From Pseudoduganella violacea (GTDB taxonomy: Bacteria > Pseudomonadota > Gammaproteobacteria > Burkholderiales > Burkholderiaceae_D): a stretch of 64,000 bases of DNA. A model generated the notes under the pieces. That model did not search any database. It was not told where the DNA came from and saw only the letters and a program-made list of their open reading frames with translations. A program made the position numbers and the translations under genes. Location of the stretch: assembly GCF_014191875.1 (NCBI RefSeq), contig NZ_JACHXD010000008.1, positions 1-64,000 of the forward strand, given 5' to 3'. Positions 38,003 to 43,089 of this stretch are shown here, piece after piece. Position 1 is the first letter of the stretch. Every line of letters begins with the position of its first letter.

Positions 38003-38047
38003 CACACGGCATCAAAAAATATTCAGAAAATACTTGCCACACGGCAT
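38003..38047. repeat. Direct repeat CACACGGCAT, two copies 35 bp apart
   Basis: Copies are at 38003-38012 and 38038-38047. The second overlaps the predicted -35 region, so the pair may be a regulator site. Confidence 0.4.
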
Positions 38048-38062
38048 TTCATGACATAAGAT
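38035..38062 (+). promoter_or_regulatory. Predicted promoter of riboswitch 1
   Basis: TTGCCA (38035-38040) and TAAGAT (38057-38062) are 16 bases apart. The transcript would start near 38069, ten bases before the aptamer. Confidence 0.45.
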
Positions 38063-38078
38063 TCCATCCAGCAACTAA

Positions 38079-38164
38079 CTGACAAGGGCAAACCAGGCGA
38101 AAGCCTGGGACGCAAAGTCATCGGTCTAAGGGGCTTCGGCTCTATGACGGCAGGACTGCCAGAC
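38079..38164 (+). promoter_or_regulatory. Cyclic di-GMP-I (GEMM) riboswitch 1
   Basis: The sequence has the GEMM-I consensus in order: GGGCAAACC, a P1b hairpin closed by a GAAA tetraloop (CCAGGC-GAAA-GCCTGG), GGGACGCAAAG, GGTCTAAGG, a variable stem with a TTCG loop, and ATGACGGCAGG ACTGCC. These elements bind c-di-GMP in known aptamers. It lies in the long leader of a secreted subtilase gene and is followed by a competing terminator stem. The same arrangement recurs at 40251-40339. Confidence 0.93.
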
Positions 38165-38254
38165 TTAGTACATCGTACACACGATAGGTGTTGGTATACC
38201 TGCGTGGCGTCTCCAATCTGTCCCTCATCGGGCAGGCGGCAGTCCTTACTTTTT
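38152..38254 (+). terminator. Expression platform of riboswitch 1
   Basis: AGGACTGCC (38152-38160), the 3' strand of the aptamer, is exactly complementary to GGCAGTCCT (38238-38246), which runs into TTACTTTTT. Pairing would form a terminator with a long structured loop. Since ligand binding should hold the first strand in the aptamer, the predicted output is ON with c-di-GMP; this is inference. Confidence 0.6.
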
Positions 38255-38284
38255 CAGAACTTTGGAAATATAGGACTCGCTACC

Positions 38285-40057
38285 ATGAAATTCATCACCA
38301 CCTCGGCCTTCTCCGCAGCAATCGCAACCGCCCTGGCAACCCTGGCCGCACCCGCCTTCGCAGCTAACGATAACGCGGAATTTGCCCGTGGCCGCCTCCT
38401 GGTAGAAGCCCGCGCCGGCCTGACCGCCACCGAATTCGAAACCATGCTCAAGCCGCACGGCGGCAAGCGCCGCAAGCTGGGCCAGAGCAATCTGCACGTC
38501 GTCGAACTGCCAGCCAACGCCAATGAACAAGCCGTGCTGGCCCAGCTGAAAAAGCACCCCGGCGTGAAATTCGCTGAGCTGGACAAGCGCGTCAAAGTCA
38601 GCATGGCCGTCAATGACCCCTACATGGGCAGCGAATGGCACCAGGCCAAGATCAACGCCCCGGCCGCCTGGGACGCTTCGCAGGGCGCCGGCGTGGTCAT
38701 CGCCATCCTGGACTCCGGCGTGAACGGCGCCCACCCCGACCTGGCCCCGAATCTGGTCGCCGGCTACAACATCTACGGCAGCAACACCGACACCTCCGAC
38801 GTCTGCGGCCACGGCACCCCGGTGGCGGGCAGCGCCGCCGCCGCCACCAACAACGGCGCCGGTGTGGCTGGCGTGGCCGGCCAGGCCAAGATCATGCCGG
38901 TACGTATCGCCTACCTCGATACCGCCACCAACAGCTGCTACGCCTACTACAGCACCATCGCCAGCGGCATCACCTGGGCCGCCGACCACGGCGCCCGCAT
39001 CGCTAACGTCAGCTTCGACGGCGCGGCAGGCAGCTCGGCCATCCAGAGCGCATCGCAGTATATGAAGAACAAGGGCGGCCTGGTCTTCATCGCCGCCGGC
39101 AACAACAACCGCGACGAGGGCTTCGCCGCCAGCACCAGCCTGATCGCCGTGTCGGCCACCGACAGCAGCGACGCGCGCTCCAGCTTCTCCAGCTACGGCA
39201 ACTTCGTTTCGCTGGCCGCGCCTGGCTCCTATATCTACACCACCAACAACAGCCTCGGCTACAGCGCCTGGAATGGCACCTCCTTTGCCAGTCCGATCGC
39301 CGCCGGCGTGGCCGCCCTGATGATGGCCGCCAACCCGGCCCTCGACAGCGGCAAGATCGAAAGCCTGCTGTTCTCCACCGCCGCCGACCTGGGCGCCGCC
39401 GGCCGCGACCCGATCTTCGGCTACGGCCGCGTGGACGCCGGCGCCGCCGTGCAAGCCGCCAAGAACTATGCGCCGCCAGCCGATACCGTGGCGCCAACCG
39501 TTGCCCTGGCCGCGCCGCTGGCCAACAGCACCGTCTCCGGCACCGTGACCGTCACCACCAGCAGCAGCGACAACGTCGGCGTCACCCGCGTCGACCTGAA
39601 AGTGAACGGCACCGTGGTTGCCACCGATACCGCCGGCCCCTTCTCCTTCGCCTGGGATTCCAACGGCGTCGTGAACGGCATGGCGCAACTGGTTGCCGTA
39701 GCATATGACGCGGCCGGCAATGCCGCCTCCTCCACCCCGATTTCGGTCAACGTGGCCAACGGCGTGCCCGCTCCGGCGATAGACACCACGCCACCGACCG
39801 TCGCCATCACCAACCCGACTTCCGGCGCGGTCAGCGGCACCGTCAACGTGGGCATCAGCGCGGCCGACAACAATGGTGCGGCCGGCATCTCGCTGACCCT
39901 GTACATCGATGGCGCAAAGAAAGCTTCCGGCACCGGCAGCAGCCTGGGTTACAGCTGGAACACCCGCAAGGAAAGCAGTGGCGCGCATACCATCCAGATC
40001 GTGGCCAAGGATGCGGCCGGCAACACGACCAGCACCAGCGTGCAAGTTACCCGCTGA
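38285..40057 (+). CDS. Secreted subtilase (S8 peptidase) with Ig-like domains, copy 1
   Basis: This encodes 590 residues. Signal peptide 1-26 (ATALATLAAPAFA), then an I9-like propeptide (GRLLVEARAGLTATEFETML, LAQLKKHPGVKFAELDK). The peptidase S8 domain has the triad Asp143 (ILDSGVNGAHPDL), His176 (CGHGTPVAG) and Ser333 (NGTSFASPIAAG) and the oxyanion Asn in FIAAGNNNRDEG. Two C-terminal Ig-like domains follow (about 395-490 and 495-590; VTRVDLKVNGTVVATDTAGP, ISLTLYIDGAKKASG). It is an extracellular protease. The frame is open upstream, but the aptamer occupies that DNA and the signal peptide fixes the start at 38285. Paralogue at 40435. Confidence 0.93.
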   Translation: MKFITTSAFSAAIATALATLAAPAFAANDNAEFARGRLLVEARAGLTATEFETMLKPHGGKRRKLGQSNLHVVELPANANEQAVLAQLKKHPGVKFAELDKRVKVSMAVNDPYMGSEWHQAKINAPAAWDASQGAGVVIAILDSGVNGAHPDLAPNLVAGYNIYGSNTDTSDVCGHGTPVAGSAAAATNNGAGVAGVAGQAKIMPVRIAYLDTATNSCYAYYSTIASGITWAADHGARIANVSFDGAAGSSAIQSASQYMKNKGGLVFIAAGNNNRDEGFAASTSLIAVSATDSSDARSSFSSYGNFVSLAAPGSYIYTTNNSLGYSAWNGTSFASPIAAGVAALMMAANPALDSGKIESLLFSTAADLGAAGRDPIFGYGRVDAGAAVQAAKNYAPPADTVAPTVALAAPLANSTVSGTVTVTTSSSDNVGVTRVDLKVNGTVVATDTAGPFSFAWDSNGVVNGMAQLVAVAYDAAGNAASSTPISVNVANGVPAPAIDTTPPTVAITNPTSGAVSGTVNVGISAADNNGAAGISLTLYIDGAKKASGTGSSLGYSWNTRKESSGAHTIQIVAKDAAGNTTSTSVQVTR

Positions 40058-40071
40058 TCACCGCCCACTCT

Positions 40072-40098
40072 AAAAACCGGGCAATTGCCCGGTTTTTT
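40072..40098 (+). terminator. Rho-independent terminator of subtilase 1
   Basis: AAAAACCGGGC and GCCCGGTTTTT form a near-perfect hairpin (loop AATT) ending in a T-run, 15 bases after the stop codon. Confidence 0.92.
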
Positions 40099-40207
40099 AT
40101 TTGTTCCGGATTAATGCTGCTTAATACTATTAAATTCAACTATTACATTGATAGTTGCTGCGCATAATTGACGTAAGTCATTGATTTAGCTCAGCCTTAT
40201 GCTTTGC

Positions 40208-40213
40208 TAGAAT
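40208..40213 (+). promoter_or_regulatory. Possible -10 element of riboswitch 2
   Basis: TAGAAT matches the -10 consensus in five of six bases, about 37 bases before the aptamer. No good -35 is seen, and an interrupted palindrome TGACGTAAGTCA (40169-40180) lies upstream, so an activator may be needed. Confidence 0.3.
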
Positions 40214-40250
40214 GCACCCACCAACTTTGCATACTCAGCAGTTCAACAAG

Positions 40251-40339
40251 CTGATAAAGGCAAACCGCGCGAAAGCGCGGGACGCAAAGTCAACGGTCTA
40301 AGGGGCGAACACTCCCCCATGACGGCAGGACTGCCAGAC
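40251..40339 (+). promoter_or_regulatory. Cyclic di-GMP-I (GEMM) riboswitch 2
   Basis: The elements of the first aptamer recur in the same order: AAGGCAAACC, a GCGC-GAAA-GCGC hairpin, GGGACGCAAAG, GGTCTAAGG, a variable stem and ATGACGGCAGG ACTGCC. The conserved positions are kept while the stem sequences differ with compensation (CCAGGC/GCCTGG in copy 1, CCGCGC/GCGCGG here), which supports the structure. It precedes the second subtilase gene. Confidence 0.93.
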
Positions 40340-40407
40340 TCTGAGCGCCAGCGATGGTGCGTGTCTTCAATCGCTCATGCAGATGGGCGGCCGGCAGTCC
40401 TCTTTTC
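40327..40407 (+). terminator. Expression platform of riboswitch 2
   Basis: AGGACTGCC (40327-40335) pairs exactly with GGCAGTCCT (40393-40401), followed by CTTTTC. An inner TGAGCG/CGCTCA stem closes part of the loop. The same competing-strand design as in copy 1 is retained although the loop sequence has diverged. Confidence 0.6.
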
Positions 40408-40434
40408 GGTATTTTTTGAAAACTGGACTACTCC

Positions 40435-42264
40435 ATGAAGAAGCGCACGACTATTTTTCTGCAAGACAAAACCTTCCTGTCCGCCTCCCTCCTCGTGGCG
40501 GCAGCCGCCCTGGCAGCCGTCACGCCGCCCGCGCACGGCGCCAAACCGCAGCATGTCCAGCAGGACGACGATCTGGCCGACAGCGAATACGCCCATGGCC
40601 GCATCCTGGTCGAGCCGCGCGAAGGCGTGAGCGAGGCCGGGTTCGACGAGGCCATCCGTCCACACAAGGGCAAGCGCCGCAAGATGGGGCAAAGCAATAT
40701 CCACATGATCGACCTGCCGCCTGGTTCGGAAAAGGCCGCGCTCGCCAAGCTGCGCAAGGATCCGCAATTCAAATACGTGGAGCTGGACCGTCGCGTCAAG
40801 CTCAGCGCCACCACGAACGACCCTTACCTGGGCAGCGAATGGCATATCGGCAAGATCGGCGCGCCTGCCGCCTGGGATCTGGCCCAAGGCGCCGGCGTGA
40901 CCATCGCCATCCTCGACAGCGGCATTTACAGCGCCCATCCGGATCTGGCGCCGCGCCTGGTGGCCGGCTGGAATGTCGACGGCAATAATGCCGACACCAG
41001 CGATGTCTGCGGCCACGGTACGGCCGTGGCCGGCGTCGCCGCCGCGGCCATGGACAATGGCGCCGGCGTGGCTGGTGTGGCGGGCAACGCCAAAATCATG
41101 CCGGTGCGCATTGCCTTCAAGGATGCCTCCGGCTCCTGCTACGCTTACTACTCGACCATGGCCAGTGGCGTGACTTACGCCGCCGACCACGGCGCGCGCG
41201 TGGTGAACCTGAGCTACGACAGCGCTCCCGCCAGCGCGGCCGTCCAGAGCGCGGCCAATTACCTGAAGAGCAAGGGCGGCCTGCTGTTCGTCGCGGCCGG
41301 CAATAACAACCGCGATGAGGGCTACGCGCCGACCAGCAGCATGATCGCGGTGTCGGCCACCGACAGCGCCGACGCCCGCTCCAGCTTCTCCAGCTATGGC
41401 AGCTTCGTTTCGCTGTCGGCGCCCGGCTCCTATATTTACACCACCAATATGAGCGGCGGCTACAGCGCCTGGAACGGCACCTCCTTCGCCAGCCCGGTCG
41501 CGGCCGGCGTGGCGGCGCTGATGATGTCCGCCAATCCCGCCCTGGACGGCGCCAAGATCGAAAGCCTGCTGTACTCGACCGCCGTCGACCTCGGCACGCC
41601 GGGCCGCGATATCTATTTCGGCAACGGCCGCGTGAACGCCGCCGCCGCCGTGGCCGCCGCCCGCAACGCCAGCGCCACCGTGAGCAAGGACACCAGCGCG
41701 CCCACCGTCGCCATCGCCTCGCCCTCGGCCAGCAGCTCGGTCACGGGCACAGTGAGCGTGGGTGTCAATGCCGCCGATAACGTCGGCGTGGCGCGGGTCG
41801 ACCTGAAGGTCAACAATACTGTGGTGGCCAGCGACAGCAGCGCCCCTTACGCCTTCTCCTGGGATTCGAAAGGCGTGGCGAACGGCATGGCCGCCCTGGT
41901 CGCCGTGGCTTACGATGCGGCGGGCAATGTGGCTTCTTCCACCCCTGTGTCGGTCAACGTCGCCAACAGCACCACGGTCGTGAGCGCCGACACGCAAGCG
42001 CCGACAGTGAAGATCACCAATCCGGTATCGGGCAGGGTCAGCGGCAACGTCAATGTGAAGGTGAGCGCTGCCGACAATAGTGGCGCCGCCGGCATTGCGC
42101 TGGCGCTGTATATCGACGGCCAGCTCAAAGCCACCGGCAGCGGCAGCAGCCTGTCCTATGCCTGGAAAACGGGCGGCCTGAGCGCCGGCCAGCACACGCT
42201 CCAGAGCATCGCAACGGATAAGGCCGGCAACCGTTCCAGCAGTTCCGTGCAAGTGACGAAGTAA
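40435..42264 (+). CDS. Secreted subtilase (S8 peptidase) with Ig-like domains, copy 2
   Basis: This encodes 609 residues and is a paralogue of the preceding gene over its full length. Signal peptide about 1-36 (SASLLVAAAALAAVTPPAHG), propeptide (GRILVEPREGVSEAGFDEAI, ALAKLRKDPQFKYVELDRRV), catalytic Asp161 (ILDSGIYSAHPDL), His194 (CGHGTAVAG) and Ser350 (NGTSFASPVAAG), then two Ig-like domains (VARVDLKVNNTVVASDSSAP, IALALYIDGQLKATG). The largest differences lie in the signal peptide and the spacer after it. The two proteases probably arose by duplication of a whole unit (riboswitch, terminator platform and gene), so both respond to the same second messenger. Confidence 0.93.
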   Translation: MKKRTTIFLQDKTFLSASLLVAAAALAAVTPPAHGAKPQHVQQDDDLADSEYAHGRILVEPREGVSEAGFDEAIRPHKGKRRKMGQSNIHMIDLPPGSEKAALAKLRKDPQFKYVELDRRVKLSATTNDPYLGSEWHIGKIGAPAAWDLAQGAGVTIAILDSGIYSAHPDLAPRLVAGWNVDGNNADTSDVCGHGTAVAGVAAAAMDNGAGVAGVAGNAKIMPVRIAFKDASGSCYAYYSTMASGVTYAADHGARVVNLSYDSAPASAAVQSAANYLKSKGGLLFVAAGNNNRDEGYAPTSSMIAVSATDSADARSSFSSYGSFVSLSAPGSYIYTTNMSGGYSAWNGTSFASPVAAGVAALMMSANPALDGAKIESLLYSTAVDLGTPGRDIYFGNGRVNAAAAVAAARNASATVSKDTSAPTVAIASPSASSSVTGTVSVGVNAADNVGVARVDLKVNNTVVASDSSAPYAFSWDSKGVANGMAALVAVAYDAAGNVASSTPVSVNVANSTTVVSADTQAPTVKITNPVSGRVSGNVNVKVSAADNSGAAGIALALYIDGQLKATGSGSSLSYAWKTGGLSAGQHTLQSIATDKAGNRSSSSVQVTK

Positions 42265-42279: not shown

Positions 42280-42307
42280 AATCAGCCCCGCATGTGCGGG
42301 GCTGATT
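42280..42307. terminator. Bidirectional terminator
   Basis: AATCAGCCCCGCA and TGCGGGGCTGATT are perfect arms, with A-run before and TTCTTTT after. It serves subtilase 2 and the convergent PEP-CTERM gene. Confidence 0.92.
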
Positions 42308-42330: not shown

Positions 42331-43089
42331 TCACTCCGTCTTCGAACCTAGGTGCAGCTTGCGGCCCAGACCGAGGGACAGCAGGCCAAGGCCGACCAGC
42401 AGCAAGCTGCCCGGTTCCGGCACCTCGCCCCCCGAACCGCCGCCGCCTCCACCGCCACCACCACCGGTGCTGCCGCTGCCGGCGACCCAGACGCTGCTCG
42501 AATAGCCCTGCACATGCACGGCGCTAATATAACTGCCGTCATCGGAATTCTGCGGCACGGACAGGAAATTGAAGGAATTGGCAGTCAAACCGGTGCCGGT
42601 AATGGTGTACTTCGAAGTGTTGCCGCGCGCTAGCTCACCGGGGTTGGCTTGGGGGAAGGCGAACCAGATATCATAGTCGCCACCGGTACCGTCCGCCTTG
42701 CAGCAGTTCGGGAAGCCATTCGGGTTTTTGTCGAGTGTGATCGAGTCGGCCGCCACGAAGCCCGCCACCGGCGTAAAAGTCGGCGCGTCGGCCAGATTCA
42801 TGATGGTCGGATCAAGATTGAAATACCAGTCGCTGACATAGGCGCCAACAAGCAGGTTGGTCAACACGTTCATGGTGAGCGTGACGCTCCCCGTACCGCC
42901 GCCATCGTCGAAAACGGCGCGGGCGAAAACGGCGTTCGGATCTACCGGGTCGCTAGGTGGCGTACCAGAGAATGCGCCTTTCATGGCGAAATCTATGGTC
43001 AGCACGGTCGCTTGCGATACTGGGGTGATGCCTGCCAATAGGGCCAGCGCCAAGCCGCTTGCCAAGACAGTCTTTTTCAGGTTTTTCAT
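42331..43089 (-). CDS. PEP-CTERM sorting-domain protein
   Basis: This encodes 252 residues. Signal peptide 1-27 (LALALLAGITPVSQA). The exported domain of about 180 residues is of no family I recognise and contains a Cys-Cys pair (GFPNCCKADGTGG). A linker of ten glycines and a C-terminal sorting signal follow: VPEPGSLLLVGLGLLSLGLG and then RKL. The VPEP motif, hydrophobic helix and basic end are the substrate signal of exosortases, which anchor or release such proteins together with exopolysaccharide. The product is therefore probably a surface or matrix protein. Its Shine-Dalgarno is inside an 11-bp hairpin (43092-43150). Confidence 0.9.
   Translation of the reverse strand: MKNLKKTVLASGLALALLAGITPVSQATVLTIDFAMKGAFSGTPPSDPVDPNAVFARAVFDDGGGTGSVTLTMNVLTNLLVGAYVSDWYFNLDPTIMNLADAPTFTPVAGFVAADSITLDKNPNGFPNCCKADGTGGDYDIWFAFPQANPGELARGNTSKYTITGTGLTANSFNFLSVPQNSDDGSYISAVHVQGYSSSVWVAGSGSTGGGGGGGGGGSGGEVPEPGSLLLVGLGLLSLGLGRKLHLGSKTE

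Follow-up and report, generated by a model that had tools for sequence, protein, structure and literature searches.

Tandem c-di-GMP-I Riboswitch Aptamers Preceding Two Secreted Subtilases in Pseudoduganella violacea and a Three-Strand Platform That May Act as a Translational OFF-Switch

Results and Discussion

In the 64,000-nucleotide stretch of Pseudoduganella violacea DNA analyzed here (contig NZ_JACHXD010000008.1, positions 1 to 64,000; hereafter the window) two genes for secreted subtilases of peptidase family S8 lie in tandem, each behind its own riboswitch aptamer of the cyclic di-GMP-I (c-di-GMP-I) class. Downstream of each aptamer a strand termed H is complementary both to the 3' strand of the aptamer, termed A, and to the Shine-Dalgarno (SD) sequence of the subtilase gene. 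The aptamers, the complementarities among the three strands, the mutual exclusivity of the pairings and their recurrence in relatives were all obtained by computation. With moderate confidence we propose that the platform is a translational OFF-switch by which high c-di-GMP would turn both secreted proteases off. If correct, the proposal would give c-di-GMP a direct, RNA-based connection with secreted proteolysis. All coordinates are collected in Table 1.

Two c-di-GMP-I Aptamers in a Duplicated Unit

A sequence-only reading of this DNA had claimed two GEMM-I riboswitches and had named a covariance-model search beforehand as a check. The search with RF01051 recovered both, far above the gathering score of 35 bits (Table 1), and no third RF01051 aptamer was found across the 6.25 Mb genome (49 contigs). 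The aptamer fold, the contact residues and the place in the 5' leader are those of the family, and no difference within the aptamer was seen. The GNRA-capped stem and the second stem are present in both copies according to the Rfam alignments. As read from the sequence, the GAAA-capped stem of copy 1 is CCAGGC/GCCTGG and that of copy 2 CCGCGC/GCGCGG; these are double-sided changes, in line with the compensatory changes that the earlier reading had pointed out.

The contact residues G20, A47 and C92 (Vc2 numbering) are present at positions 11, 38 and 83 of copy 1. Position 83 is presumably the equivalent of the ligand-contacting C92, an assignment based on our own alignment. By alignment the specificity position is G in both copies. 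We take it that A at the G20 position marks the cyclic GMP-AMP (cGAMP) type (GEMM-Ib variant) and G the c-di-GMP type; on this rule cGAMP specificity was ruled out for both aptamers. The numbering is supported by the first two contact residues, which are spaced by 27 nt like G12 and A39 of Vc1; the latter were mutated in PMC4744006, where mutation of C104 had no effect. By every sequence feature tested both aptamers are members of the c-di-GMP-I class and would be expected to bind c-di-GMP. The genome contains 60 GGDEF matches, so that c-di-GMP signalling in the host is plausible.

A secreted subtilase indeed follows each riboswitch. Peptidase_S8 (PF00082) was matched with 156.1 bits (E 1.6e-45) by subtilase 1 and with 161.5 bits (E 3.7e-47) by subtilase 2 at a cut-off of 21.8 bits. 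Both proteins carry a fervidolysin-type prodomain, and their signal peptides were recognized by eye. The best relative of subtilase 1 among solved structures is thermitase (1tec, E 1.4e-51); its D, H and S motifs were located within the thermitase alignment, those of subtilase 2 by eye.

The duplication of the whole unit, also claimed earlier, is borne out by comparison of the two copies: of the aligned bases, 74 of 85 are identical in the aptamers and 1356 of 1730 in the coding regions, and the proteins are 67.5% identical over 563 amino acids. The leaders had been described as diverged between the aptamers and the genes. Accordingly, numerous gaps are needed to align the two linkers (128 columns, with identity at 76 of 89 aligned bases). 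The aptamer 3' end lies 121 nt from the subtilase start in unit 1 and 96 nt in unit 2.

One Strand Complementary to Aptamer and Shine-Dalgarno Sequence

The competing strands named in the sequence-only reading are the same in both leaders: H (GGCAGTCCT) is the exact complement of A (AGGACTGCC) and follows it after a gap of 57–77 nt. Since A holds position 83, the presumed ligand contact, and is complementary to H, the A:H helix and the bound aptamer are mutually exclusive. The T-run that had been attributed to both leaders proved less convincing than claimed there: H is followed by TAC and then TTTTT in copy 1, by just C, TTTT and then CGG in copy 2.

The third strand, the SD sequence, was assessed in relatives. 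Matches to the aptamer model numbered 135, of which 8 were removed as duplicates. From 53 aligned aptamers one at a contig end (L045) was dropped, then 3 of the 52 leaders because they exceeded 170 nt, leaving 49. One linker segment complementary to both A and SD was found with p ≤ 0.05 against dinucleotide shuffles in 24 of the 49 leaders and with p ≤ 0.01 in 9; in the window the values are 0.04 for copy 1 and 0.10 for copy 2. Fisher's combined p over the 49 is 5e-18, an overstatement as the leaders are related. The A/H/SD platform was recognized in 34 of these 49 S8 leaders. This set of 34 was picked by hand and consists of all 15 leaders of the T-run type and 19 others showing the pairing; 23 of its members had p ≤ 0.05.

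The core of H persists although the linkers around it have diverged, and within the 34 leaders the H:SD pairing covaries. One of 12 columns has 18 G:C and 9 A:U pairs, is paired in 28 of 34 leaders and gave a permutation p of 0.0005; two further columns reached p 0.0005 and two more p < 0.05. The core-fixed register used for this calculation was chosen by best helix, which favours pairing. The complementarity also exists in other letters and without a T-run: in two members of the genus, Massilia sp. Root418 and Root351, TCCTGT is complementary to ACAGGA, and the corresponding pairs are AGCAATCCTGTT with GACAGGATTGTT in locus L166 and GTTCTGTTTAA with TTAAACAGAAC in L169.

The three-strand pattern was not significant in leaders of genes that are neither subtilase nor sedolisin-like (p ≤ 0.05 in 5 of 33). 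Five leaders of a different gene group (L140, L142, L139, L141 and L172) have a 9-base-pair complementarity, CCCTTTGTT/AACAAAGGG, over the SD sequence which adjoins a segment complementary to the aptamer GGGGTT (p 0.01–0.29); possibly this is the same three-strand design in other letters.

Direction of the Switch

In the proposed OFF-switch, bound c-di-GMP would keep A in the aptamer; H would then be free and could fold onto the SD sequence, and translation would be off. Without c-di-GMP, H would capture A during transcription, the SD sequence would be open and the protease would be made. The proteases would thus be off in the high-c-di-GMP state and on in the low-c-di-GMP state. What goes beyond the computed pairings is inferred, namely that the ligand binds, which way the switch turns, that control acts on translation, that the fold is chosen kinetically and what the cell uses the switch for.

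Folding calculations agree with the two alternative states. With the aptamer fold forced, the probability of H:SD pairing was 0.58–1.00 in all 34 leaders and 0.96 and 0.99 in the two window copies. For energies, SD opening and terminator scores 24 of the 34 leaders were selected by hand and 10 left out. In 24 of these 24 the SD sequence was more often unpaired given A:H (0.27–0.64) than given the aptamer (0.00–0.16); the window values are 0.64 versus 0.01 for copy 1 and 0.44 versus 0.01 for copy 2. A further test used all 49 leaders and SD sequences chosen solely by likeness to AGGAGG. Counting changes above 0.03, the aptamer fold lowered SD accessibility in 18 of the 49 and raised it in 3, the figures for shuffled linkers being 30% and 20%. 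With the aptamer formed, the mean openness of these SD sequences was 0.22 as compared to 0.40 with shuffled linkers, and it was lower in 40 of 49 leaders. In growing transcripts A:H was dominant (0.96–0.99) shortly after H had been made. Once the SD sequence emerged, A:H was replaced by H:SD in copy 1; in copy 2 it stayed at 0.93 up to the start codon and then became mixed (0.14–0.73). At full length and without ligand, leaders lacking a T-run favoured A:H over H:SD in 8 of 10 cases. The T-run leaders retain H:SD complementarity, with local hairpins of -5.8 to -12.7 kcal/mol, and in all 15 of them the predicted H:SD hairpin takes up the T-run in its inner U/A helix.

The sequence-only reading had predicted from the design of the leader that c-di-GMP activates. 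This prediction gained no support from our computations and is probably wrong: when the aptamer keeps A, H is predicted to pair with the SD sequence. Strong termination by A:H combined with SD sequestration in the alternative state would leave the gene always off; taking A:H as the ON state, and c-di-GMP as the OFF signal, is therefore the simpler reading, reached by elimination and computation. It is favoured further because the three-strand design persists in relatives without a T-run. A precedent also supports it, since zmpI (PPEP-1) of C. difficile encodes a secreted protease, has a class-I riboswitch in its mRNA and is reported to be negatively regulated by c-di-GMP (PMC6366702). That enzyme is an unrelated zinc metalloprotease of a distant bacterium.

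Several results weigh against the OFF-switch. At equilibrium H:SD has a probability of 0.96 in copy 1 in both states. Of 14 ligand-free, full-length T-run leaders, 11 favour H:SD over A:H by more than 1 kcal/mol, and in the other 3, including copy 2, the two are within 0.2 kcal/mol; for copy 1 the gap amounts to 4.6 kcal/mol, for copy 2 to 0.2. When the full aptamer is forced on the full-length leaders, the cost is 17.1 and 11.0 kcal/mol, and at the end of the T-run the forced aptamer lies about 21 kcal/mol above A:H in both copies. Without ligand the closing pairs of the aptamer did not exceed a probability of 0.23 at any transcript length tried. In the test with AGGAGG-like SD sequences the window remained nearly unchanged (0.01 to 0.01 in copy 1, 0.21 to 0.17 in copy 2).

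Equilibrium folding closes the SD sequence of copy 1 without ligand and places the aptamer far above its competitors, so that, as modelled, the choice of fold in the window must be kinetic. A pause at the U-run would presumably help such a choice. Equilibrium folding as the sole judge was dropped, as it leaves the SD sequence of copy 1 closed in either state. Ligand and tertiary contacts, which lie outside the model, would have to make up for the energy cost of the aptamer. This cost weighs on activating and repressing models alike, because both need the ligand to hold A away from H.

The comparative evidence has weak points as well. Significant covariation is lacking in 7 of the 12 H:SD columns, two of them invariant. 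The leaders share ancestry, so that the p values overstate their independence, and A is nearly invariant, which leaves A:H without covariation support. In leaders of sedolisin-like (S53-like) genes the pattern was not significant (p ≤ 0.05 in 3 of 31). Moreover, 15 of the 49 S8 leaders, mostly from other genera, were set aside because no clear pattern was visible by eye; one of them, L068 from Nitrosospira, nonetheless gave p 0.01.

Alternative Readings of the Platform

The leaders could form a transcriptional ON-switch in which the ligand-free A:H helix and the T-run terminate transcription, and c-di-GMP, by keeping A in the aptamer, allows read-through. A:H is predicted at the end of the T-run with probabilities of 0.98 and 0.97. 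In all 15 T-run leaders a GC-rich A:H helix is followed 1–3 nt later by the T-run, which looks like a terminator and counts against the OFF-switch. The topology resembles that of the cGAMP riboswitch of Geobacter pilM, an ON-switch in which the terminator takes up the C that contacts the ligand (PMC9262584): there, as in the window, a downstream strand competes for the aptamer 3' strand including this C. The pilM element differs in its ligand, its terminator and its ON response, the window having G at the specificity position and an alternative that closes the SD sequence. A second precedent against repression is Vc1 of V. cholerae, a riboswitch of the same class that responds positively to c-di-GMP, its translational fusion losing expression when c-di-GMP is lowered (PMC4744006). 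According to its authors no terminator or anti-SD sequence is apparent in Vc1. Vc1 shares with the window the aptamer class and a gene for a secreted protein; the platform differs, and so would the response.

Activation through a terminator nevertheless appears unlikely. In the read-through mRNA the SD sequence would be paired with H, with probabilities of 0.96 and 0.99 when the aptamer is forced. Stem and T-run are not contiguous, and copy 2 has TTTT alone. The d'Aubenton-Carafa score, which was made for short hairpins, is below 0 in all 24 leaders (best -0.3), compared with +58 and +18 for the hairpins after genes 1 and 2. Relatives retain A, H and SD without the T-run. A local intrinsic terminator in the leaders was rejected as well: the consensus scan gave none in either leader on this strand, and its 6 sites in the region compare with 5.0 expected by chance. 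A search that required 5 T in 6 after the stem yielded hits in 15 of 51 subtilase leaders, copy 2 not among them, and in 8 of 73 others.

The platform occurs with and without T-run in one genus. Gain of a T-run might turn the A:H helix of an OFF-switch into a terminator and so flip the sign of the response, an idea that we put forward as rather doubtful. If it were true, one and the same aptamer would serve opposite regulation of orthologous or paralogous proteases in sister species, and even the two copies in the window could have different signs. More generally, a stem with a T-run can suggest the wrong sign for a riboswitch if the strand involved covers the SD sequence as well.

A two-level platform would combine partial termination or pausing at the T-run with translational control by H:SD; its sign would be kinetic and might differ between the copies. 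One H strand does encode both alternatives, with state gaps of 4.6 kcal/mol (copy 1) and 0.2 kcal/mol (copy 2), and for the c-di-GMP-I riboswitch Bc1, which has a long platform, 'dual regulation' is described (PMC11218506). However, full termination together with full sequestration would keep the gene always off, so that at most one arm could be strong; we consider this combination more doubtful still. That the aptamers no longer regulate and are relics of a duplicated leader is very improbable: gene 2 of two related genomes lacks aptamer and platform, and the riboswitch is thus dispensable for the gene there, but both window aptamers score far over the cut-off and the H core is kept in divergent linkers.

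Recurrence in Relatives

A survey of riboswitch-subtilase pairs in relatives had been asked for beforehand. In the genus 26 aptamers were found. Of these, 19 stand before an S8 subtilase and 3 before an S53-like protein; the remaining 4 are followed by something else or by a contig end. Sixteen of these 19 subtilases are at least about 49% identical to those of the window; 3 belong to another S8 lineage (about 30%). Control of extracellular proteolysis by c-di-GMP, the theme proposed in the earlier reading, gains support from the recurrence of this pairing. Genomes with c-di-GMP-I aptamers number at least 18 of 74 in the genus, at least 32 of 100 among relatives and at least 152 of 392 in the family, all lower bounds, as the filters lose weak matches.

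Outside the genus 80 places were picked by hand from among the matches listed so as to span genera. They yielded 79 distinct aptamers, of which 28 precede an S53-like protein, 13 an S8 subtilase and 38 other genes or none. Two further S8 cases, L154 and L168, have the same sequence as the named loci L087 and L059 and are included in the count of those. S53-like here means phmmer similarity (E 1e-10) to the protein of locus L102, which may partly come via immunoglobulin-like (Ig-like) domains. The L102 protein, the sole S53-like protein compared with solved structures, gave weak matches (E 3e-9 to 3e-8) to sedolisin and tripeptidyl-peptidase 1. The S53-like proteins of L102, L104, L098 and others are secreted, lipoprotein-like and mostly about 800–900 amino acids long. 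Scanning of 64 non-subtilase proteins gave 10 SLT transglycosylases, 12 PKD-domain proteins and a few with PAS, GGDEF or EAL domains. Taken together, a recurrent regulon of S8 subtilases and S53-like proteins behind c-di-GMP-I aptamers is suggested for many Burkholderiales.

Starting from subtilase 1, 41 related loci were found in named genomes. An aptamer lies directly upstream of the match in 24 and before a neighbouring subtilase gene in 2 (L078 and L079); 15 have none. Hosts of aptamer-subtilase loci include Massilia, Herminiimonas, Nitrosospira, Nitrosomonas, Rhodoferax, Aromatoleum, Thauera and Accumulibacter, and also the gammaproteobacterium Seongchinamella.

Two deviating aptamers were observed in this material. 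One (L025:1501-1589, minus strand, genome G082) has A in place of G20 and is a possible cGAMP-type variant. The other (L034:2865-2941, minus strand, genome G005) is a weak c-di-GMP-I match of 46.9 bits without the usual GCAAA motifs, lies before a long Ig-repeat protein and may be another GEMM variant.

Comparison with Known Systems

Compared with RF01051 as a family, what sets these leaders apart is the A/H/SD platform, present in the S8 leaders as described above and not significantly so in the S53 leaders. Several c-di-GMP-I riboswitches per leader are known from the tandem Bc3-5 (PMC4759541) and from Bacillota COG1305 'putative cysteine proteases', which are preceded by several of them (PMC12452182). 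The window, in contrast, has one riboswitch per gene in a tandem array. No pairing of a c-di-GMP riboswitch with a subtilase was recognized among the entries listed from the literature searched, which excludes the 2007 GEMM gene list; a search for this pairing led to work on MogR in B. thuringiensis. Nor did that literature yield a connection of c-di-GMP with an extracellular protease in Massilia or a c-di-GMP riboswitch in Nitrosomonas. Within this literature the betaproteobacterial protease regulon and the three-strand platform are new.

Evolution of the Tandem

The subtilase pair is kept in two related genomes, G050 (locus L041) and G021 (L042), in which the intergenic region before gene 2 is shorter by 178 and 176 nt. 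Gene 2 lacks aptamer and H there, and the promoter region and SD sequence remain. These loci are a natural riboswitch-less version of the same gene. Over the upstream flanks the window is 93–94% identical to both genomes, over gene 2 and beyond 83–88%, while G050 and G021 are 92% identical to each other over the whole stretch. Loss in G050 and G021 or recombination bringing unit 2 to the window lineage may account for these values alike.

In the protein tree genes 1 and 2 of the window group with genes 1 and 2 of G050 and G021. A simple duplication history was rejected, as the copies of several other species group together and not by position. Duganella sp. CF458 (G009) and genome G110 have arrays of three subtilase genes, in which the second and the third gene are preceded by aptamers and the first is not. 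Another Duganella sp. CF458 observation concerns locus L039 (genes 6575-4827 and 4384-2639), which has genus-like leaders before subtilases about 50–55% identical to those of the window. In the tree the L039 subtilases group with sequences of Aromatoleum, Thauera, Dechloromonas and Accumulibacter; because the leader is genus-like and the protein groups with other genera, leader and coding region may have different histories.

Transcription Signals and Neighbouring Features

Unit 1 has a sigma-70-like promoter and a terminator of its own, and the two units are therefore probably transcribed separately. Promoter-like sites in the region amount to 2, with 1.1 expected from shuffles; a motif like that of unit 1 was seen by eye at the same place in several relatives. 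The likely -10 element of unit 2 was missed by the consensus promoter scan, and the hairpin after unit 2 is absent from the output of the consensus terminator scan.

Table 1: Features of the two riboswitch-subtilase units, in positions of the window.
Feature	Position	Strand	Source or remark
Sigma-70-like promoter, unit 1 (TTGCCA-17-TAAGAT)	38034..38062	+	Consensus scan
c-di-GMP-I aptamer 1	38077..38163	+	Rfam RF01051, 79.2 bits, E 6.4e-14
A strand 1 (AGGACTGCC)	38152..38160	+	Aptamer 3' strand, holds aptamer position 83
H strand 1 (GGCAGTCCT)	38238..38246	+	Complementary to A 1 and, via AGTCCT, to SD AGGACT
T-run 1 (TACTTTTT)	38247..38254	+	5' arm of inner helix and preceding bulge of predicted H:SD hairpin
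Shine-Dalgarno 1 (AGGACT)	38272..38277	+	Complementary to H 1
Secreted S8 subtilase 1	38285..40057	+	Pfam; 590 amino acids, prodomain and two Ig-like Big_7 stretches
Intrinsic terminator, unit 1	40072..40097	+	Consensus scan; stem abuts T-run; d'Aubenton-Carafa +58
Likely -10 element, unit 2 (TAGAAT)	40208..40213	+	By eye; also in G050 and G021
c-di-GMP-I aptamer 2	40249..40338	+	Rfam RF01051, 70.5 bits, E 8.4e-12
A strand 2 (AGGACTGCC)	40327..40335	+	
H strand 2 (GGCAGTCCT)	40393..40401	+	Complementary to A 2 and, via AGTCC, to GGACT of SD
Interrupted T-rich stretch 2 (TTTTCGGTATTTTTT)	40403..40417	+	5' arm of inner U/A helix and loop of predicted H:SD hairpin
Shine-Dalgarno 2 (TGGACT)	40424..40429	+	
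Secreted S8 subtilase 2	40435..42264	+	Pfam; 609 amino acids, same domains as subtilase 1
Terminator-like hairpin, unit 2, then CTTTT	42280..42307	+	Read from sequence; d'Aubenton-Carafa +18

Right after subtilase 2 a gene for a PEP-CTERM protein (PF07589, 25.2 bits, cut-off 20.7) is located at 42331-43089 on the minus strand. A stretch like this PEP-CTERM region is also found 3' of gene 2 in G050 and G021.

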